A program made the position numbers and the translations under genes. DNA of 64,000 bases, taken from positions 1,338,501 to 1,402,500 of the forward strand of contig NZ_CP007029.1 of assembly GCF_000227685.2 (NCBI RefSeq). The letters are read 5' to 3'. Below, in pieces: positions 39,895-53,107 of this stretch. The notes under the pieces are model-generated. The model saw only the letters and a program-made list of their open reading frames with translations. It did not search any database and had not been told where the DNA came from. This stretch comes from Thioalkalivibrio paradoxus ARh 1. GTDB taxonomy: Bacteria > Pseudomonadota > Gammaproteobacteria > Ectothiorhodospirales > Ectothiorhodospiraceae. Numbering within the stretch: the stretch's first letter is position 1; every line of letters begins with the position of its first letter.

Positions 39895-40083
39895 TAACTG
39901 TCATGGCCAGCGGCCACCCCCGATGATGAAAGAGGCGTAGGGCGGAAGAGGCCGAAGGCCATCATCCGCCATCCGGCGCCCGGGTTGCCGCGGGCGCCTG
40001 GGCACTGCGAACGCCGTACGGCGGATGACGCTGCGCTATTCCGCCCTACGGGACACCCGGGACGCGACGCGGGTTCTTTCACG
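39895..40083 (+). repeat. Palindromic repeat element, copy C
   Basis: The cleanest copy, 189 bp. It opens TAACTGTCATGGCC, then CACCCCCGATGATGAAAG, first arm GTAGGGCGGAAGAGGCCGAA, second arm CGGCGGATGACGCTGCGC and TTCCGCCCTACGGG, and ends TTCTTTCACG. It provides the unoccupied version of the site hit by the IS in copy B. Confidence 0.88.
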
Positions 40084-40177
40084 CTATAAATAAGGGGGAA
40101 TGCACGGCATCCGCGCCTGGATCGCGAATGCCCAGGGCTGGCGGCGCTGGCCCTGCCGAGTAGGTCTGGAGGAACGC

Positions 40178-40999
40178 ATGTTCGAACATATCCTGGTGGC
40201 AGTGGATTTCTCTCCGGCATGGCAGCGGCTGCAGACGCAGCCGGAACGGCTGCGGTCACTGGGTTGCAACCGGCTGACTCTGGTCCATGTGCGCGGGGGG
40301 GCGCGGGACGAAGAGGAAGCCGAGAGGGACGAGGGGGCGGCGAAGCAGCTTGATGAGGCCGCGGCGACACTGCAAGGCAAGGGCTTCGAGTTGGACACGG
40401 TGGTTGGAACCGGGCCCGTGGTCGAAGAACTCGTGCGCGTGGCACAGGAGCGGGGCGCTGGCGTGATTCTGGCCGGTGCGCACGGCCACCGCACCCTGGA
40501 TGATCTGCTGTTGGGATGCACGGCTCAGGACCTTATCCGCGGGGCCGACCGTCCGGTGCTGCTGGCACCGACCGACCCCTCGGTGGAGCTGCCGGCGGTC
40601 CCGGTCTCGCGATTGCTGCTGGCGACCGATGGTTCGCCGGCCGCCGGTGGCGCCGAAGCCGTCTTTCTGGAATTGCTTCGGCACTGTGACAGCGCGGTGG
40701 TGGTTTCGGTCGGCGGCTGGGTGGACCAGCGCGAGTATGCCGCGGAGCGCCAGGCGATCGAGGACCATGTGTCGGCGTTGGCCGAACGGGCCGGGAAGCA
40801 CGATTTCGATGCGGAACTGCTGGGCCGCGGCCGGCCCTCGGCGGAGATCGCGCGGGTGGCGCAGGAACACGATGTGGATCTGGTGATTCTCGGGCGGCGC
40901 GGCCACAGTTTGTTGGCGGAGCGGCTGCTGGGCAGCACCGCGGAGGCCGTCTGCCAGCAGGCGCGGCGCCTGACGCTGGTGGTACCCGACAACGGCTGA
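40178..40999 (+). CDS. Tandem universal stress protein (two UspA domains)
   Basis: Cytoplasmic protein of 273 residues with two UspA folds. The first starts MFEHILVAVDFSPAWQRLQ and ends with GAHGHRTLDDLLLG; the second starts VSRLLLATDGSPAAGGAEA and ends with GRRGHSLLAERLLGSTAEAV. The second domain keeps the nucleotide-binding G-x2-G-x9-G-[S/T] pattern (GRRGH...GST), while the first reads GAHGH...GCT. GGAGG lies 6 bp before the ATG. Role: stress survival, ligand probably ATP. Confidence 0.88.
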   Translation: MFEHILVAVDFSPAWQRLQTQPERLRSLGCNRLTLVHVRGGARDEEEAERDEGAAKQLDEAAATLQGKGFELDTVVGTGPVVEELVRVAQERGAGVILAGAHGHRTLDDLLLGCTAQDLIRGADRPVLLAPTDPSVELPAVPVSRLLLATDGSPAAGGAEAVFLELLRHCDSAVVVSVGGWVDQREYAAERQAIEDHVSALAERAGKHDFDAELLGRGRPSAEIARVAQEHDVDLVILGRRGHSLLAERLLGSTAEAVCQQARRLTLVVPDNG

Positions 41000-43107: not shown

Positions 43108-46100
43108 TCAGCCGGCCGGGATCCCGATCGCGGATTCGGTTCGGGCCGCCAGCCACTCCCGAAGTTCTTGCGCGCGAACCGGTCGGTTGGCCAGGTATCC
43201 CTGGTAGAAACCACAGTCCTGATTGCGCAGGAACTCCAGCTGTGCAGCGGTTTCCACGCCTTCGGCGACGACCCCCAGACCGAGGTTGCGCCCCATCGCG
43301 ATGATGGTCGCCGCAATTTCGGCGGCCCCCAACGTGTCGGGTATCTTCTGTACGAAGCTCTGGTCGATTTTCAGCTTGTCGACCGGGAATTGCTGCAGGT
43401 AGGCGAGCGAAGAATAGCCCGTGCCGAAGTCGTCGATCGAGATGCGGACGCCGAGCGCTTTCAGGTCATGCAGAATGCGGGCCGCGTCCGGGCCTTGTTC
43501 CATCAGTGCCGTCTCGGTGATCTCCAGGTCGAGGTGTCGGCCTGCCAAACCGGTCGATTGCAGGATGCTGCCGACCAGTGCCGGCATGTCTTGCAGCTGG
43601 AACTGCCGTGGCGAAAGGTTTACCGCCACTGTGTCCGGGCCATTTCGGTCGGCAAGCCATTGCCGCATCTGGCGGCAGGCGGTACGCAACACCCATTCTC
43701 CCACCTGGGTGATCAGACCGGTTTCCTCCGCAACGGGAATGAACTCGTCCGGGGGAATGAGCCCGAGGTCGGGATCCTGCCAGCGCAGCAGGGCTTCCAC
43801 GCCGACGACACGGCCATCGGAAATTCGCACCTGGGGCTGGTAGTGCAGCACGAACTCATCGCTCTTTACCGCGCGGCGCAGCCGCGTCTCCAGCGACAGC
43901 CGGCGGACCGCTGCCTGTGTGAGCGCCTCGGTATAGAACTGGAAGGTATTGCGGCCCAGTTCCTTGGCCTTGAACATCGCCGAGTCGGCATTTCGCAGCA
44001 GAGCCTCCGGATCGGTTCCATCCTCCGGACACAGGCTGATGCCGATGCTGGCGGTCACGAAAACCTCGCGGCTCTGATCCAGGCGAATCGGTTCCCGTAG
44101 CCACGCGAGTGTGTCGCCGGCGATCGCGGCCGCATGTTCGGGCCGGTCGACCGATGCCATCAGAATCACGAACTCGTCGCCACCGGTACGCGCGAGGTCA
44201 TGGCCCTTGGGCAAGCGTTCCTTGAGCCGTTCGGCGACCAGCACCAGCAGCCGATCCCCCATCGACAGCCCGAGACTGTCGTTCACGTGCTTGAATCCGT
44301 CGATGTCGATCAATAGCACGGCGGCATGACCGCCGTGCTGCTGGATCCGTTCGGCGATCCTGGTCAGCCGGGACTCGAGCAGCGTCCGGTTGGCGAGCCC
44401 AGTCAGTGAGTCATGGTGGGCCAGATACTCCACGCGTCGCTGGCTTTCCCGCAACTCGGCGAGATCGGTAAACACGCCGACGTAGAACTCCGGCGAACCG
44501 TCCGCACCAGGGACGGCGTCGATGGTGAGCAGTACCGGGTAGATCTTCCCATCCCGTCGGCGGTTGCGGATTTCCCCCTGCCAGTGGCCCGTTTCGAGCA
44601 GCTGCTGCCACATGTGGCGATAAAAGGCCTTGTCCTGGTAGCCGCTCTGCAGTATCGCCGGGCTCTTGCCCAGCGCTTCCGAGGCGGGGTAACCCGTGAT
44701 CTGACTGAACGCTCGATTGACTGCGATGATGATCGCTTGCGAGTCGGTAATGGTCACGCCGTCGCGCGTGTTTTCGAATACCATGGCGGAACGGCGCAGC
44801 GCGTCTTCGGCTTCCTTGCGGTCGGTGATGTCCTGGAACACGCCGTTGAGCCGGGTCACCCGGCCTGCTGACTGTTCCGGGACACAGATCGTGCGTGCCC
44901 AGATCGTTTCACCGTCCGCGGTAATCCAGCGGAATTCCCGATCATAGGCATCCCCGCGGGTCATCGCGTCGTGCAGAAGCCGTTCCAGCTCTGCTCGATT
45001 CTGCGGATGGCAATGGCGCGTCGTCTCGTCCAAGGTGGGCCGATGGTCGTCCGGGAGGCCCAGGATCCGGGGCATTTCGGGTGTCCACACCAGCGTCTCG
45101 TTCGCGAGGTCGTATTCCCAGCCGCCGACCCCGGCGATGTGTCCGGTCGTGCGCAGCAGCGCCTCGCTTCGGCGCAGCGCGTCCTGAATGGCCCGCCGCT
45201 GGGTGACATCGCTCAGGTACCCATGCCATAGCGTGCCTCCGTCCGGCAGGCGTTCGGGCGTCGAGTGGGTCTCGACCCAGATCAGGCCTCGGTCCGGATG
45301 CCGGACGCGCAATTCCTCGTGCCAATCGGTCAGATCGCGGGCCGACCGCTGCAGGGACTCGACGAACCGGGCGCGATCCTCGGGGTGGATCAGGGAGACC
45401 ACCAGCTCGGCGTCCCGGAGCACGGACTCGGGGTCGCGCCCGAACAGCGCCCGGGCACCGGCGCTGAGATAGCGGAAACGCGGGGTTCCGTCGGGCAGCA
45501 TCTGGAACTGATAGACCATGCCCGGGATCTGCGCGGTGGTCTTGCGCAGCAGGAGGCTGCCGGCTTCGGTGCGCCGGCGCTGTTCGCGCAGCCGCAGGTT
45601 CTGGATCCAGGCCAGCACCAGCAGTGCGAGCACGACTGCGGCCGCAGCCGCTCCGGTGATGACCAGCAGCTGGTGCTGTCGCCAGAGGTCGTCCAGCGTA
45701 ATGGCCGGAGGACGGTCGTAGGGGGGCAGACCCAGTTCGCGCAGCAGTTCGTCGACCACGTGGTAGTCAGAAGGAACCTTGAACCCATACAGGCCGGCCG
45801 CCTGGGCTGCCCGATGTTCCGGACGCAGCGACAACAGCGCGATGCTGAGATCGGTGAGCAGGCGCTCGTCGAGATGTGGCAACGCGACCACCGGCCATTC
45901 CGGGTACAGCCGCGTCGAGACCGCAAACGGGAACCCGGGAAGATCCTGACGCCGGATCACGCGCAGGCGGTCGATCCCCGGAACTCCCGTTTCCTGCAGG
46001 CGCTCCAGCACGCCGCTACGGAGGAACCCCGCGTCGGCGCGACCCTCGAGCACGGCATGCACCACGTGGTCGTGGTCAGGCAGTTCGACCACGTTCGAAA

Positions 46101-46620
46101 AGGCGCCCGGTATCGGCATCCCTTCGGCGATCAACTCGCGCTGAATCGCCTGATAACCGCCGAGAAAGTCGGTTCCCGGCACGGCCACGGTTCGGTCCCG
46201 GAGATCGTGCAGGCTGGTGATGTCGTCCCGGGTCTGAAGCGCGATCACGGTTCCGCCCAGCAACGCCACCGGCTCTCCCCGGTGCTGTCGAATCACTGTG
46301 GCGATGGCGCCTGCCAGCGAGTGGTATTGGCGCAGCAGCTCGAAGTGGACCGGATTGGTCAGCAGCAGATCGAGCTGGTGCAGCCGAACGGCCTCGTCCA
46401 GTTGCTCCCGGTCGAGCACGCGTATTTCCACGCGGTGTCCTGGCAGTTGCTGTTCCAGGTAGTCCGCGAGGGGTCCGTACGCTTGTTCGACCACCTCCAC
46501 TGGCCGATACGCGAAGACGCCGAGCACCAGTGTTTCCTCGCCGTGGGATTGGGGCAGGGCCGGGTTGAGCAAGAGCAATAACGCGAGCCCGAGCCAGTGC
46601 AGGCGCGGTCTAGCGCTCAT
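43108..46620 (-). CDS. PhnD-like sensor with PAS, GGDEF and EAL domains
   Basis: Membrane c-di-GMP signalling protein of 1170 residues. A signal helix is followed by a periplasmic phosphonate-binding-like (PhnD) domain (about 30-290, VLGVFAYRPVEVVEQAYGPL, DLLLTNPVHFELLRQ), a membrane helix (about 315-340), three PAS/PAC units (about 350-735), GGDEF (TGGDEFVILM, intact) and EAL (GVEALLRWQDPDLGL, DDFGTGYSSLAYLQQFPVD). Both catalytic signatures look intact. Its start overlaps the substrate-binding lipoprotein gene by 11 bp, so the two probably sense together. Confidence 0.9.
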   Translation of the reverse strand: MSARPRLHWLGLALLLLLNPALPQSHGEETLVLGVFAYRPVEVVEQAYGPLADYLEQQLPGHRVEIRVLDREQLDEAVRLHQLDLLLTNPVHFELLRQYHSLAGAIATVIRQHRGEPVALLGGTVIALQTRDDITSLHDLRDRTVAVPGTDFLGGYQAIQRELIAEGMPIPGAFSNVVELPDHDHVVHAVLEGRADAGFLRSGVLERLQETGVPGIDRLRVIRRQDLPGFPFAVSTRLYPEWPVVALPHLDERLLTDLSIALLSLRPEHRAAQAAGLYGFKVPSDYHVVDELLRELGLPPYDRPPAITLDDLWRQHQLLVITGAAAAAVVLALLVLAWIQNLRLREQRRRTEAGSLLLRKTTAQIPGMVYQFQMLPDGTPRFRYLSAGARALFGRDPESVLRDAELVVSLIHPEDRARFVESLQRSARDLTDWHEELRVRHPDRGLIWVETHSTPERLPDGGTLWHGYLSDVTQRRAIQDALRRSEALLRTTGHIAGVGGWEYDLANETLVWTPEMPRILGLPDDHRPTLDETTRHCHPQNRAELERLLHDAMTRGDAYDREFRWITADGETIWARTICVPEQSAGRVTRLNGVFQDITDRKEAEDALRRSAMVFENTRDGVTITDSQAIIIAVNRAFSQITGYPASEALGKSPAILQSGYQDKAFYRHMWQQLLETGHWQGEIRNRRRDGKIYPVLLTIDAVPGADGSPEFYVGVFTDLAELRESQRRVEYLAHHDSLTGLANRTLLESRLTRIAERIQQHGGHAAVLLIDIDGFKHVNDSLGLSMGDRLLVLVAERLKERLPKGHDLARTGGDEFVILMASVDRPEHAAAIAGDTLAWLREPIRLDQSREVFVTASIGISLCPEDGTDPEALLRNADSAMFKAKELGRNTFQFYTEALTQAAVRRLSLETRLRRAVKSDEFVLHYQPQVRISDGRVVGVEALLRWQDPDLGLIPPDEFIPVAEETGLITQVGEWVLRTACRQMRQWLADRNGPDTVAVNLSPRQFQLQDMPALVGSILQSTGLAGRHLDLEITETALMEQGPDAARILHDLKALGVRISIDDFGTGYSSLAYLQQFPVDKLKIDQSFVQKIPDTLGAAEIAATIIAMGRNLGLGVVAEGVETAAQLEFLRNQDCGFYQGYLANRPVRAQELREWLAARTESAIGIPAG

Positions 46621-47614
46621 GCTGGGGGAGATAAGCGGCTGTGAACAGATCCTGTAAGTCGGAGGCTTCGGGCAGGAGCCCCGATTCGACCATGATGTCG
46701 GACAGGGTGGCGGCCGCCTGCGCCATGCGTGGATTGCGTCCCGAAAGGTAGCGTTCGTTCGCGAGCCGGTTGGGCAGTTCAAGACCGCGCATCCCGTCCA
46801 GCACGTGCCGGGCCGGAACCCCCATCCGGGCGGCCATGCGGAACGACGCATCGTCCCGGTTGCGCCGAAGGTGGGCCAACGCCTCGAAATGGCCGCGGAT
46901 CAGTTCCCGCAACGCACTTCGCTGTACGCGGGACAGCCGGCTTTCGTGCACGGCCAGCACGTCGAAGATCGTATCCGGGATCTGCCGGCTGTCGAAGATT
47001 ACGTCGGCGCCTTCGCTTCGCAGTTGACTGACGATGGGCTCGAAGGTGATCAATGCATCGATTTCGCCCGAGTGCCAGGCCTCGAGGTGGTGGTCGTACG
47101 TCATCGGCACGACCTCGACCGCTGACCGCGGCAGTCCGGCGGCGTCGAGCAGCATGTGGAGGACCAAGGCTCCAAGCGCCGAGCGCTCGGCACCGATGCG
47201 CTTGTCTCTGAGGTCGGCCAGCGACTCGATGCCTGGCCGTGCGAGCACCGCATCGGCACCGATGGACACATTGAATACCAGCACCGCCGTGAGCGGTTGC
47301 CCCTCGGCCCGCGCCCTCAGGACTTCGTCGAGGGTCAGGGCGGCGCCGTGAACCTTGCCGGTCGCCAGTGCCTCGAGCGACTCGGTCGCCGACCCCGTCT
47401 CGACCAGCGATACTCCGGCGTGCTGCACGAACCCCATGTCGCGCGCCATGAACATCGGTTCATAGCCGATCCAGGTGTGTGCAGCGATGGTCAGCGGATC
47501 ACGGCGCCCGCAGCCCGACGGTAGGATCGAAAGGAACAGACCCGCGGCCGAGGCTGCGATCAGAGTTCGGCGCTGATGGTTCACCGACGCCTGCGCGTGC
47601 CCCTTCCAGATCAT
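46610..47614 (-). CDS. NMT1/SsuA-like substrate-binding lipoprotein
   Basis: Periplasmic binding protein of 334 residues of the nitrate/sulfonate/thiamine-precursor type. It has a signal with lipobox LSILPSGC (Cys about residue 35) and the fold motifs IAAHTWIGYEPMFMARDMGF, SATESLEALATGKVHGAALT and LITFEPIVSQLR. No ABC permease or ATPase is adjacent; instead the next gene encodes a PhnD-PAS-GGDEF-EAL sensor, so it likely delivers a ligand to signalling rather than transport. ATG 47614 is preceded by AAAGAAG. Confidence 0.8.
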   Translation of the reverse strand: MIWKGHAQASVNHQRRTLIAASAAGLFLSILPSGCGRRDPLTIAAHTWIGYEPMFMARDMGFVQHAGVSLVETGSATESLEALATGKVHGAALTLDEVLRARAEGQPLTAVLVFNVSIGADAVLARPGIESLADLRDKRIGAERSALGALVLHMLLDAAGLPRSAVEVVPMTYDHHLEAWHSGEIDALITFEPIVSQLRSEGADVIFDSRQIPDTIFDVLAVHESRLSRVQRSALRELIRGHFEALAHLRRNRDDASFRMAARMGVPARHVLDGMRGLELPNRLANERYLSGRNPRMAQAAATLSDIMVESGLLPEASDLQDLFTAAYLPQHER

Positions 47615-47773
47615 CGTGGCTTCTTTGCTCGGGCTGTTGGACGTTCCGGGCGCCGTGGATCTGCGGCCCGATACCCTGCTCACTGTACCGCTTTTTCCAA
47701 CGTTTCCGGAAGCCCGGGTCCGGGCGGTTCGCGAGCGCGCCGATCCCCGTTGCCAGTGGCATCGCCGGCGCGG

Positions 47774-48172
47774 TCATCGGATCGGCTGGCCGCTCATCCG
47801 CTCCAGCATGCGTTGCCGGAAGGCCTCGCGGGTATCGCTGGGTTCGGTGCTGCGGAAACGACCGTCGTCCGGAGCACGGTCGAAGCGGCTTCGGCCGCCA
47901 AGAGACGGGCCGGTGGTGTTGCGTTGTACGGTGATGTCGGTGTTGTGGCCATCGCGGGTGATGACCTTGTGTCCGTCCGGGTAACGGATCACTCGCGACT
48001 CGGTGATGTACCGACTGGAGCCATGATGGTGGATGACCGTCGTCGAGCCGCTGGGTGTTTGCACGTCGGCTGTGGCGCAGCCCGCATTCGCGCTGGCCGC
48101 TGCCAGTATCGCGGCAATCATGAGCGCTGGTCCGACGAGCGGAGCGCTGCTAGCCTGGTTTCGGTGGTTCAT
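47774..48172 (-). CDS. Small secreted protein in the curlin-repeat cluster, 132 aa
   Basis: A signal peptide (LMIAAILAAASANAGC, possibly lipidated at Cys32) leads to a polar mature part, TTVIHHHGSSRYITESRVIR, then YPDGHKVITRDGHNTDITVQ and an Arg-rich tail. It lacks regular Q/N repeats but follows three curlin-repeat genes on the same strand. Possibly an accessory or nucleating protein; that is inferred from position only. GAGAGG lies before the ATG. Confidence 0.65.
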   Translation of the reverse strand: MNHRNQASSAPLVGPALMIAAILAAASANAGCATADVQTPSGSTTVIHHHGSSRYITESRVIRYPDGHKVITRDGHNTDITVQRNTTGPSLGGRSRFDRAPDDGRFRSTEPSDTREAFRQRMLERMSGQPIR

Positions 48173-48321: not shown

Positions 48322-48636
48322 TCACCGGTGCGCCCGGGAGACGGCGGCCGGGTGGCCGGTGCGCCGAGCCGCTTGCCCGCGCTGGGTGTCGCCGGAACGG
48401 CCGTAGGCATGGCCCTTGCCGCCGCACCCGCCCTGGACGGTCTGATTGATGTTGATGCGTCCGTCCTGGTGGGTCGTGTTGTCATTGCTGTCGCCGCACT
48501 GCACCGTACGGTTGATGTTGACCTGTCCGGTCTGGACGGTGGTGTTGGTGTTGTCGCGCGCGGAGGCGGTGGCGAGTACGGCTGGAAGAAGTGCCAGGAT
48601 CAGGATCAGGCGGGTTGGGGCGGTCGGTTTGCGCAT
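48322..48636 (-). CDS. Secreted curlin-repeat protein, 104 aa (two Cys)
   Basis: Signal peptide (LILILALLPAVLATASA, cleavage near residue 27) and then repeats with Gln at 35, 46, 57 and 68, an exact 11-residue period following QxGxxNxNxTx (QTGQVNINRTV, QCGDSNDNTTH, QDGRININQTV). This is the half-repeat of curlin-type amyloid subunits (Curlin_rpt). Cys47 and Cys71 are unusual for curlins. The C-terminal 35 residues are basic and non-repetitive. Confidence 0.75.
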   Translation of the reverse strand: MRKPTAPTRLILILALLPAVLATASARDNTNTTVQTGQVNINRTVQCGDSNDNTTHQDGRININQTVQGGCGGKGHAYGRSGDTQRGQAARRTGHPAAVSRAHR

Positions 48637-48817
48637 CGGGGGTACCTCGGCAATCGGGATGCAAAATGGTGATTGGTTTCCAGTAGCGAACCCCTGGCGC
48701 CTCCTGCGTCTGGGGCATCTGGACGGGTGCCAAGTGCAGGGCAGCCGGTGGCACGGAACCACCGTATCCGATGGCCCGCGCCATGGCCGGAACTAGCAGC
48801 CCAAGTCCGATAGGCTG

Positions 48818-49108
48818 CTAGCGCCCCGACGGTTGCCGGATCCTCGTCCAGTCGTGCTGGTATTGGCGCACCTTGTTGTCGTTAATCCGCCCCGTCTGGA
48901 CCGTTTCTACCGAGTTGTGCTGCCCAGCCTGCACGGTTCGGCTGAAGTTCATGTCGCAGTCCTGCCGTATCCGGGCATCGTTGACCCGGTCGCCCTGGAC
49001 AGTCACGTTGAAGCAGGGCCCATGGCTACGTTCGCGCGGCGTGTCGCCGAATGCGGTCGGTGCGGCCAGCAGCAGGGCGAGCCCGCTGGAGATCAGAATG
49101 CCTTTCAT
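48818..49108 (-). CDS. Secreted curlin-repeat protein, 96 aa
   Basis: Signal peptide (GLALLLAAPTAFG, cleavage near residue 21), then five units with Gln at 38, 49, 60, 71 and 82 and Asn five residues after the first four (43, 54, 65, 76): QDCDMNFSRTV, QAGQHNSVETV, QTGRINDNKVR. Curlin-like beta-solenoid strands are expected. Cys32 and Cys51 could form a disulfide. GGAGG lies 9 bp upstream of the ATG. Middle gene of three. Confidence 0.75.
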   Translation of the reverse strand: MKGILISSGLALLLAAPTAFGDTPRERSHGPCFNVTVQGDRVNDARIRQDCDMNFSRTVQAGQHNSVETVQTGRINDNKVRQYQHDWTRIRQPSGR

Positions 49109-49173
49109 CGTTGGAGGCCTCCGGTGGTGTTCGGGAAGATGCCGGTGCCCGGAGTCGGGCACCGTCGCACGGT

Positions 49174-49491
49174 TCAGTCGCGACCCCGGCCGCGGGTGAG
49201 GCTGCTACGGTTGGCAACGCCGGTCTGGCGCGTCTCGTTGTAGTTGAACCGGCCGAACTGCCCGGTCTGGTTCCAGTTCTCGGTGCCGCGCTGGTGGGTG
49301 CGGTTGGCATTGTCGCGGCCTTCCTGGTAGGTCGCGTTGTCGTTGTACCGCCCCGTCTGATGGGTATCGTTGGTGTTGATATGCCCCTCCTGGATGGTCG
49401 TGTTGAAATTGGTTTGTGCCGAGGCAGTACCACCGAAGGCGAGAAGGGCGGCGGCGATGGCCAGGGACAGGAGCTTGGCGTGGTTTTTCAT
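49174..49491 (-). CDS. Secreted curlin-repeat protein, 105 aa
   Basis: Signal peptide (LAIAAALLAFGGTASA, cleavage after residue 25), then the most regular repeat of the group: Gln at 34, 45, 56, 67, 78 and 89 and Asn at 39, 50, 61, 72, 83 and 94. Units read QEGHINTNDTH, QTGRYNDNATY, QEGRDNANRTH. The chain ends in a basic tail (RGRGRD). No Cys in the mature part. First gene of the cluster by transcription direction and the most likely major subunit. Confidence 0.78.
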   Translation of the reverse strand: MKNHAKLLSLAIAAALLAFGGTASAQTNFNTTIQEGHINTNDTHQTGRYNDNATYQEGRDNANRTHQRGTENWNQTGQFGRFNYNETRQTGVANRSSLTRGRGRD

Positions 49492-50110
49492 GTGATGATC
49501 CTCATTGGTTGGTACAGCGTATTGTGGTTGTGCCGTCGGGATTCGCCGATGGGATCTCTGCGTCATCATCGGGCAAATCCTTCCAGCCGTTCCGGGTCCG
49601 GCATCCCGGTTCCCGGTGACGTTCGGGATGCGTCGCTTTCCCGTCGTCGAGGCCAGACTATCCGGGGGATCTGAACAACCACTGAACGCCCGAACGGGCT
49701 ATGTGCACGAGTTCACATTCGGTGCTGCAGCCCGAAAGGGCGGCGTCTGGACGACAGCGAGTGGGGCGTCTGCCAAGCCGGCGGGGCCTGCGTTGCGGGT
49801 TCTGGGGGGGCGGAATACGGCGTCCCCCGACCGGTGCGTTCAATGCACGATCAAGCCGGGAGCGGGGTGGCGCCACCGCCGCCTGCGTTGACGGTAGGCA
49901 CCCGAGCGTCTAGATTGCCCGGGCAGGGCCGTGGGTTCCCCAGGTGCGGCGTGCCGACCCCGGCCGGTCGCCCGTTCGCCGCATGGGGTATCGGCGGGTT
50001 CAGGTGCGCGGCGGAGGGTCGTGCGCGAGCGCTGTCAGGGCACTACGGCTCTCGATTGGGAGGCCCATGCAGTCACCGGCACCGAAACCGACCTCGAGGC
50101 GATCTTAGGG
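49492..50110. other. Intergenic region, 619 bp, divergent promoters expected
   Basis: No convincing gene. Promoters for the curlin-repeat genes (minus) and the Met-rich gene (plus) must lie here. The part after 50020 is open in the frame of the Met-rich gene and may be coding if that gene starts at GTG 50021. No repeat or hairpin of note. Confidence 0.4.
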
Positions 50111-50737
50111 ATGTTTGAGAAAGACCCACGAACCTTCTCCCCCGAATACCAGAATCTGTCGCCGGAGCAGAAGGCGATGGTGAAGCTGGAGATCGCGCTG
50201 AGTAATTTCTTCCGCGCGTTCGAAGGCAGTGTACGTAGATGGGAGCGCATGGTGTACCCGTCGATGCTGATCATGGGTGTCTTGGTGCTGTCCGGGTTCT
50301 ACCTGATCTACAACCTGACCGGCGACATGGCCCGGATGTCCCGTGCCGTGGATCCGCAAATGGAGCAGAACATGCTCGCGATGTCCGACAACATCGCCCA
50401 GCTCTCCAGCAACATCGCGACGATGACGGGCGAGATCTCGACCCTGGTCGGCGTGATCCACGCGATGCAGTCGAGCGTCGCGAACCTCGACGGCAACATC
50501 ACCGGCATGACGGCTTCCCTGGACATGGTGCAGAAGGACATGGCGCTGATGACCCCGAGCGTCGTCGAGATGAACGACAGCATGACCGAAATGACGAAGC
50601 AGATGACCCACATGAACCAGAACATGGGTGCGATGAACCAGAGCATGGGTCGGATGGGGCAGGATATGAGCCGCATGGCGCACGACATGAACCGGTTCAC
50701 GCGTCCCGAGAGCATCATGATGCCGTTCATGCGCTGA
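50111..50737 (+). CDS. Methionine-rich single-span membrane protein
   Basis: Protein of 208 residues with a membrane helix at about 53-73 (MVYPSMLIMGVLVLSGFYLI) and a long helical C-terminal domain in which Met recurs every three to four residues (MNDSMTEMTKQMTHMNQNMG, then MNQSMGRMGQDMSRMAHDMN). The middle part (NIAQLSSNIATMTGEISTL) looks like a coiled coil. No family recognised. ATG 50111 is used; GTG 50021 after GGAGGG would add 30 residues. Met-rich coiled coils could bind Cu+ or simply pack; function unknown. Confidence 0.7.
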   Translation: MFEKDPRTFSPEYQNLSPEQKAMVKLEIALSNFFRAFEGSVRRWERMVYPSMLIMGVLVLSGFYLIYNLTGDMARMSRAVDPQMEQNMLAMSDNIAQLSSNIATMTGEISTLVGVIHAMQSSVANLDGNITGMTASLDMVQKDMALMTPSVVEMNDSMTEMTKQMTHMNQNMGAMNQSMGRMGQDMSRMAHDMNRFTRPESIMMPFMR

Positions 50738-52311: not shown

Positions 52312-53064
52312 TCAATCCGTCGTGGCTTGTGCAGTCGACTCCGCTTCGGACTGCGCGACATGCAGCCGGTAGTGTGTATTGACGCGCTCGACGTAGTTGC
52401 GCGTCTCGCGAAACGGTGGAATCCCGTTGTACCGCTCAACCGCCCCGGGGCCGGCGTTGTATGCGGCCAGCGCCAGGTCCAGCTGCTGATCGAAGCGGTC
52501 GAGCATCTGGGACAGGTAGGTTACGCCCCCCCGGATGTTCTGCGCCGGGTCGAAGCGGTCGGTCACGCCGAGTTCCCCCGCCGTCGCCGGCATCAGCTGC
52601 ATCAGTCCGTGCGCGCCGACCGGCGACACCGCCTTCGGGTCGAAGCAGGACTCGACCCAGATCACGGATTTCACCAGCAGCGGGTCGAGTTCCCGGGCAG
52701 CCGCCTCCTGCACGATGATGTCGTCGTACGGACCCGAACCGACCGGCATCACGTCTTCGGCCCTGAGACGGCAGCGCACGCTGGCAGTCGGACGGCCATA
52801 GGTCGCGATCAGCGTCAGGGCATGGTCCTGCTGGCGCTGATTGGTGACCAGCCGCTTGCCGTCGGCCCCCTGGTACACGAAGAGCTGGCTGCTCGAGCGC
52901 GCGGCAGCCGATCCGGGAACGGAAACCTGCCGGTAACTCACGCCCGATGGCGGCCGGTCGGTGTACACTCGCGTGCCATGTGCGTCGACATAGGTATACA
53001 GCTGGGCCCCCGCAATAGGCGCCCAGGCGATCAGCCCGAGGAGCAGAAATCGGATCAGGGTCAT
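52312..53064 (-). CDS. Lytic transglycosylase with DUF4124 N-terminus
   Basis: Periplasmic murein lytic enzyme of 250 residues. A signal peptide (1-20) is followed by a DUF4124-like segment (LYTYVDAHGTRVYTDRPPSG) and an SLT domain with catalytic Glu in VIWVESCFDPKAVSPVGAHG, LMQLMPATAGELG and ALAAYNAGPGAVERYNGIPP. It is divergent from birA with the start codons only a few tens of bases apart. Confidence 0.9.
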   Translation of the reverse strand: MTLIRFLLLGLIAWAPIAGAQLYTYVDAHGTRVYTDRPPSGVSYRQVSVPGSAAARSSSQLFVYQGADGKRLVTNQRQQDHALTLIATYGRPTASVRCRLRAEDVMPVGSGPYDDIIVQEAAARELDPLLVKSVIWVESCFDPKAVSPVGAHGLMQLMPATAGELGVTDRFDPAQNIRGGVTYLSQMLDRFDQQLDLALAAYNAGPGAVERYNGIPPFRETRNYVERVNTHYRLHVAQSEAESTAQATTD

Positions 53065-53107
53065 GCCGGACGCTCTTTTGTGGCTCAGTTCACAATATTA
53101 CCGTTTC

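Follow-up and report, generated by a model that had tools for sequence, protein, structure and literature searches.

The genome of Thioalkalivibrio paradoxus ARh 1 encodes, side by side and on one strand, four small proteins, A to D, which we regard, with a probability of about 0.5, as a conserved module from which a curlin-class amyloid-like fibre or coat is built outside the cytoplasm without CsgG. The genes lie in a window of 64,000 nucleotides (positions 1,338,501 to 1,402,500 of contig NZ_CP007029.1), the whole stretch of DNA that was analysed, and sister loci were found in other genomes (Table 1).

The gene cluster

A preliminary description of the region had proposed three adjacent genes for small secreted proteins with Gln at strict 11-residue steps, and both the direction of the genes and the register are borne out: A, B and C are all on the minus strand, and Gln recurs at residues 34-45-56-67-78-89 of A, 38-49-60-71-82 of B and 35-46-57-68 of C. 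Asn, said to stand at +5 from these Gln, does so for 13 of the 15 and fails for the final Gln of B and of C. Cysteines were rightly noted in two of the three proteins, B and C having two each and A none. As an inventory of the cluster the description stopped one gene short, because it overlooked D, a fourth conserved gene.

The gaps between A and B, B and C, and C and D measure 65, 181 and 149 bp, and a purine-rich ribosome-binding-like stretch lies 5' of the ATG in all four genes (GAGGA in the case of A). A scan for promoters and terminators gave no site for the cluster: the one promoter and the four terminator-like sites that it returned lie on the plus strand. Judged by eye, all four products begin with signal-peptide-like stretches. 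A, B and C are hydrophilic and rich in Asn and Gln (GRAVY -1.8, -1.4 and -1.2), and A ends in a basic tail. In D a Cys ends the signal-like stretch, the lipobox being atypical, and the protein is possibly a lipoprotein; one or two curlin-like strands can be made out in it by eye, and no match over the cut-off was obtained in Pfam, in NCBIfam or, with a D profile, in the PDB.

Table 1. Coordinates of the cluster genes, their neighbours and related features (window positions unless a locus is named).
Feature	Coordinates	Strand	Remarks
Gene A	49174-49491	minus	105 aa; six units N-x-N-x-T-x-Q-x-G-x-x in unbroken series (Gln 34-89)
Gene B	48818-49108	minus	96 aa; five 11-residue units; C32 and C51
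Gene C	48322-48636	minus	104 aa; four units; C47 and C71; basic tail
Gene D	47774-48172	minus	132 aa; C-terminal segment conserved
NMT1-like binding protein	46610-47683	minus	next downstream of D; likely ATG 47614
Sensor	43108-46851	minus	phosphonate-binding (periplasmic), PAS, GGDEF and EAL domains in one polypeptide
Gene divergent from A	49931-50737	plus	
Window ORF	52315-53097		away from cluster
Window ORF	39897-40532		away from cluster
Autotransporter in A-B-D operon	L061 6867-8336		curlin passenger by Pfam
Autotransporter in A-B-D operon	L057 1932-3401		curlin passenger by Pfam
Autotransporter in A-B-D operon	L101 6642-8141		
Tandem A copies, Thiorhodospira	L043 8192-8805		
Curlin pair near csgG (G043)	L051 7476-9329		control
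Weak CsgG-domain proteins of G006 and G015	L102 1150-2211; L103 4349-5467		away from cluster

When the mature sequences were shuffled, an equally long Gln run at any step from 4 to 30 arose 5 times for A, 134 times for B and 3,662 times for C in 100,000 shuffles, and an N-x5-Q count as high in 0, 0 and 38 of 20,000. Since 3.7% of the shuffles equal its length, the Gln run of C is weak when taken alone; the 11-residue unit is kept in all 11 C sequences compared. Among the stop-to-stop frames of at least 60 aa in the window, A and B have the longest equal-step Gln runs (6 and 5), and the run of C (4) is tied with 19 other entries. No 33-bp tandem repeat was detected in the DNA of the cluster. 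Measured against genome G010, dN/dS is approximately 0.17 for A, 0.26 for B, 0.31 for C and 0.27 for D: the four are real genes under purifying selection at the protein level. It is extremely improbable that they are chance, non-genic Asn/Gln-rich low-complexity ORFs, a reading to which the shuffles of C lend something and against which speak the orthologues, dN/dS values below 0.32, the ribosome-binding-like stretches and the exact register of A and B; it was rejected as ruled out in practice by conservation.

Relation to curlins

The view that the repeats are curlin-type units held up in several comparisons. A phmmer search of the PDB with the single sequence of A found the curlin-repeat chain 8c50 at 3.1e-4, followed by polyketide synthases at 0.13. 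With profiles, for which the repeats inflate E-values, 8c50 was the sole match of A at E <= 0.1 (1.1e-14) and was matched by B at 4e-20, with one more chain at 0.73; the single sequence of C had no match in the PDB. By hhalign, A was aligned with a profile of three curlins at a probability of 94.6 over 55 columns and with the autotransporter (barrel) alignment at just 54.4. The NCBIfam CsgB model gave 3.9e-6 for A, 0.0019 for B and 0.013 for C, and none of the three proteins reached the CsgA or CsgB cut-offs (the best, A, has 26.7 of 165 bits). Pfam Curlin_rpt, the profile that the preliminary description had named, went against it: there is no match to A, B or C at E <= 10 and none in the T. 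paradoxus genome. Against the same profile, the A protein of Thiorhodospira scores 13.7 of 20.7 bits. In plasmids, tblastn gave 33 records at E <= 10, of which 29 are from Rhizobium; the best E is 0.03. The matching genes are named curlin and csgH in one annotated record (H3), and a second region carries no annotation; phages gave no match to A.

In the curlin model the unit reads N-$-psi1-$-psi2-$-Q-x-G, where psi is one of A, I, V, L, F, S and T, and the inward-facing positions are 1, 3, 5 and 7 (PMC10192328, section 6). The core of A is Asn-Asn-Thr/Ser-Gln in 60 of 60 units from Thioalkalivibrio and Thiocapsa (Q7 is fixed by the choice of register), with N1 and T/S at psi2 throughout and, just as regularly, Asn at psi1, which is outside the published psi set. 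Hydrophobic residues at positions 3 and 5 number 0 of 120 in these ten A sequences; they number 8 of 70 in six A sequences of other genera (all eight are Ala at position 3), 46 of 142 in 14 B sequences and 0 of 90 in 11 C sequences, the units having been chosen by register for A and B and by the N-x5-Q pattern for C. Two control curlins encoded near csgG of genome G043 gave 41 of 48, with a looser pattern that by itself admits only small or mostly hydrophobic residues at position 3. Under a cruder pattern the counts rise to 19/138 (A), 37/88 (B) and 12/98 (C), because stretches of the signal peptide and tail are included. The control proteins, about 2 kb from csgG, are ordinary curli from the same class of bacteria. 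In Thiorhodospira, A is present as a near-identical tandem pair in which Ala or Ser replaces Asn at the first core position; these copies are nearer to classical curlin.

The cysteines have fixed places in the units. C32 of B stands at position 1 in the first unit and C51 at position 9 in the second, and neither varies among the 14 aligned sequences; because the two places should be side by side on a curlin arch, a disulfide between them would close the first arch. In C, C47 follows the Gln of unit 2, while the other Cys lies 2-3 residues past that of unit 4; both are kept in 11 of 11 sequences, and the pair should stack in neighbouring rungs.

Structure prediction by AlphaFold gave low-confidence models. 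That of A, made with 15 sequences, has a pLDDT of 52.8 and a pTM of 0.28, and its strands (27-35, 38-46, 50-57, 60-67, 72-79 and 82-88) are in step with the six units; that of B has a pLDDT of 49.1, with strands at three of the five units. For comparison, in a survey of CsgA only 237 of 2,686 models fell below 70 (PMC10192328, section 7). Foldseek with the model of A gave no hit at E <= 0.001, and the best 50 rows included no curli; this result was left out of account, the model being poor.

Distribution and two locus layouts

A, B and D occur together in 16 genomes whose loci were examined; C is also present in 11 of them and an autotransporter gene in the other five, and the two were never found at one locus. 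The layout with C between B and D is that of nine Thioalkalivibrio and two Thiocapsa genomes. The layout without C, where the autotransporter gene directly follows D, is that of two Thiocystis genomes, Thiorhodospira (with A twice), a metagenome-assembled genome (MAG) of Burkholderiaceae and genome G157. Thiocapsa and Thiocystis belong to the Chromatiaceae. Within the genus, A, B and C are present in nine of 30 genomes searched, T. paradoxus included, and D in all nine. Contig ends affect three genomes: the cluster of G023 is split across two contigs, C and D of G016 are at a contig start, and G003 has a fragment of A at a contig end. A pattern search for B in named genomes, the reach of which is limited to near relatives, found relatives at 14 loci, in Thioalkalivibrio, Thiocapsa, Thiocystis, Thiorhodospira and the one Burkholderiaceae MAG, and a survey of the class found B in two of 369 genomes, those of T. 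paradoxus and G157.

The autotransporters of the A-B-D loci are 490-500 aa long, and the autotransporter domain is matched at approximately 1e-32 in four proteins and in G157. Curlin_rpt is over the cut-off in both Thiocystis proteins (1.6e-7 and 4.9e-7) and slightly below it in that of Thiorhodospira (19.8 of 20.7 bits); there is no match at E <= 0.01 in the Burkholderiaceae protein and none at E <= 1e-5 in that of G157. Possibly, these autotransporters are a family of surface-displayed curlin nucleators. The autotransporter domain has no match in the T. paradoxus genome, and the barrel profile gave one weak match in the 30 genomes of the genus (2e-5, G018) and none in the remaining 29, T. 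paradoxus among them; the Thiocapsa genomes were checked for the barrel at the locus. Surveyed through the class, the barrel profile was matched at 1e-10 in 34 of 369 genomes, strongly only in G157 (7.9e-163). The other matches of this survey were taken, on their partial coverage, as ordinary autotransporters.

Export machinery

The absence of csgG and csgF that the preliminary description had noted for the window extends, in domain searches for CsgG and CsgF, to the whole T. paradoxus genome, which is a single contig. The CsgG domain had no match in 14 of 16 carriers tested, a set in which some assemblies are incomplete or give no figure for completeness. Besides G016, the set takes in every A-B-D carrier except G157; it comprises G000, G006, G010, G014, G015, G016, G017, G019, G023, G027, G032 and five more, with Thiorhodospira (G032/G062) counted once. 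A single weak match was obtained in G006 (1.6e-12) and another in G015 (5e-13), in proteins encoded on contigs other than that of the cluster. Hits to the Pfam CsgG model are not specific: in a published survey, 171 of 601 were true (PMC3521004). CsgF had no match in any of 17 genomes.

When the ORFs of 17 loci were compared all against all, with ORF lists for six, no shared exporter was revealed beside the clusters; the ORFs that recur are A to D and a gene for a GGDEF-EAL protein. Two window ORFs at a distance from the cluster also found counterparts: for the one at 52315 there are two loci with weak matches (45 bits), and four for its counterpart in G010; the one at 39897 has matches in two loci. 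The earlier suggestion that the proteins have different export needs is plausible, because in the T. paradoxus genome the autotransporter domain, like CsgG and CsgF, went unmatched while sister loci carry an autotransporter in the same operon.

Proposed model and alternative explanations

The model that we favour may be put as follows. A to D would be exported from the cytoplasm via Sec, as their N-termini suggest to the eye. A, B and C would share the curlin strand-arc-strand unit, to which A and B are tied by sequence relation and C by the unit itself, and would form beta-solenoids whose rungs each consist of two 11-residue strands and in which inward columns of Asn, Asn, Thr and Gln would replace the hydrophobic core. 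The positions of the units suggest that the cysteine-free A is the main subunit and B and C are minor ones, in which one disulfide would close the first arch in B or join two adjacent rungs in C and so provide a stable end or nucleus. D, with its conserved Cys after the signal-like stretch, could be a membrane-linked base or nucleator. At loci without C, the autotransporter with its curlin passenger may anchor or nucleate the fibre at the cell surface. In Thioalkalivibrio the searches brought up no dedicated outer-membrane exporter.

It is also conceivable, if rather unlikely, that the proteins are small beta-solenoids that do not polymerise and serve at the cell surface as adhesins or ligand-binding scaffolds for a surface or mineral. 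The subunits are short, with four to six units, the Cys pairs might act as caps, and polymerisation is absent in many beta-solenoid proteins (PMC10192328, as put in its discussion); yet the closest PDB chain by sequence is a curlin-repeat protein, and the register of A in Thioalkalivibrio is uninterrupted, with no obvious capping sequence. The least probable of the explanations weighed in this section is that a csg operon was lost and that these curlin genes are what survives of it, without export. In favour of this, neither CsgG nor CsgF is found in T. paradoxus; against it, purifying selection acts on A to D, and A-B-D is kept in 16 genomes of several genera, with no CsgF match in any of the 17 genomes searched. 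This reading was rejected.

A further explanation, also unlikely, places A to D permanently in the periplasm, where they would wrap the globules of stored sulfur in a family reportedly without the known sulfur globule proteins (Sgp) that form such a coat. Intracellular sulfur is described for T. paradoxus (PMC4653848), Sgp are reported as absent from Ectothiorhodospiraceae (PMC8877833, PMC10892978) and Chromatiaceae store sulfur in the periplasm (PMC8877833). Thiocapsa and Thiocystis, both carriers, are of the latter family. Moreover, no outer-membrane exporter was found in the T. paradoxus genome, and SoxB is over the cut-off in 11 of the 13 carriers searched for it. However, two carriers, the Burkholderiaceae MAG (G063) and Thiorhodospira (G062), have neither SoxB over the cut-off nor dsrA, which was searched in six genomes. 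According to the available part of PMC8877833, no studied Ectothiorhodospiraceae, Thiorhodospira included, store sulfur inside, and Thiocapsa bogorovii, a congener of two carriers, has Sgp genes (PMC10892978, in part). The GRAVY values of A, B and C mark a composition unlike that of Sgp, and sister loci encode an outer-membrane barrel. A narrower form of the idea, which we consider doubtful, is that a polar-core curlin-type amyloid encloses, within the periplasm, the sulfur stored by T. paradoxus and by those of its relatives that store it, the autotransporter layout being a surface-displayed sister. If true, curli chemistry would be used as an organelle-like mineral coat for which an outer-membrane exporter is unneeded.

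Comparison with known systems and significance

Like the curli subunits CsgA and CsgB, the proteins have 11-residue half-repeats N-x5-Q-x-G, signal-like starts and a profile match to 8c50. They differ from them in the Asn at the first inward core position, in the Cys pairs of B and C, in scores that stay short of the Curlin_rpt and CsgA/CsgB cut-offs, and in their setting, with no CsgG-domain match in 14 of 16 carriers and no CsgF in 17 of 17. The closest precedent is the CS class of curlins, which have a purely hydrophilic Ser/Thr core and are encoded outside csg operons, for example A0A249PTX6 of Sinorhizobium fredii (Sleutel 2023, PMC10192328, section 7). A resembles them in its strictly regular, near-identical units, its polar core and its place outside a csg operon; it differs in having Asn, not Ser or Thr, at psi1 (psi2 is T or S in 60 of 60 units), and B differs in that 46 of its 142 core positions are hydrophobic. 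The module as a whole is set apart from this class as a conserved multi-gene one, with two Cys-bearing paralogues and D, and with sister loci linked to an autotransporter. Since hydrophilic-core curlins outside csg operons are already in print (PMC10192328), novelty is limited, and for this reason and because the AlphaFold models are of low confidence the new amyloid system, which the preliminary description had put forward as a candidate, is not demonstrated.

The curlin-passenger autotransporters of loci L061 and L057 share curlin units with the module and belong to the same gene train as A-B-D there, but none was matched in the T. paradoxus genome. Sgp (SgpA-D of Chromatiaceae), like A to C, are small signal-peptide proteins of sulfur-storing bacteria with several per genome; compared by description, SgpA-C are extremely hydrophobic and Sgp are called rich in alternating Gly and Tyr (PMC8877833, in part), whereas A to C are hydrophilic and rich in Asn and Gln. 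In open-licence full text at PMC we found no description of the A-B-C-D module, no CsgG-independent curli, no pairing of curlin repeats with an autotransporter, no title relevant to amyloid in Thioalkalivibrio, amyloid together with sulfur globule proteins in one paper (a review on vesicles) and, among the matches listed, no curlin in connection with Thioalkalivibrio or purple sulfur bacteria; the 2012 curli survey, in the part of its text available, leaves the carrier genera unnamed (PMC3521004).

The CsgG pore is thought to be needed by curli subunits, and only 1,033 of 43,279 genomes with CsgA are without CsgG (PMC10192328, section 6). The module makes it testable whether curlin assembly requires this pore, whether CsgG is replaced by a curlin-passenger autotransporter, by a lipoprotein base or by retention in the periplasm, and whether an Asn/Thr/Gln zipper alone holds a functional amyloid. 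The Cys pairs offer a built-in handle to trap the fold.

Neighbouring genes

The NMT1-like gene stands beside the cluster only in G010 among the other loci compared. Of eight Thioalkalivibrio loci whose sequence continues for at least 4 kb downstream, seven have a GGDEF-EAL-like gene after D, whereas seven loci from other genera have none; three of these neighbours were checked with Pfam and show two different sensor ends. Control by c-di-GMP would fit a matrix component, but the Thioalkalivibrio loci share descent. Between genera the neighbours of the cluster vary, and include an AcrB-type pump and UvrA-like, WD40, FtsX, radical SAM and TauE proteins. The gene divergent from A, which has no match in the other loci compared, encodes a protein that is 96% identical in G010 and has Met at every third or fourth residue along much of a coiled-coil-like tail.
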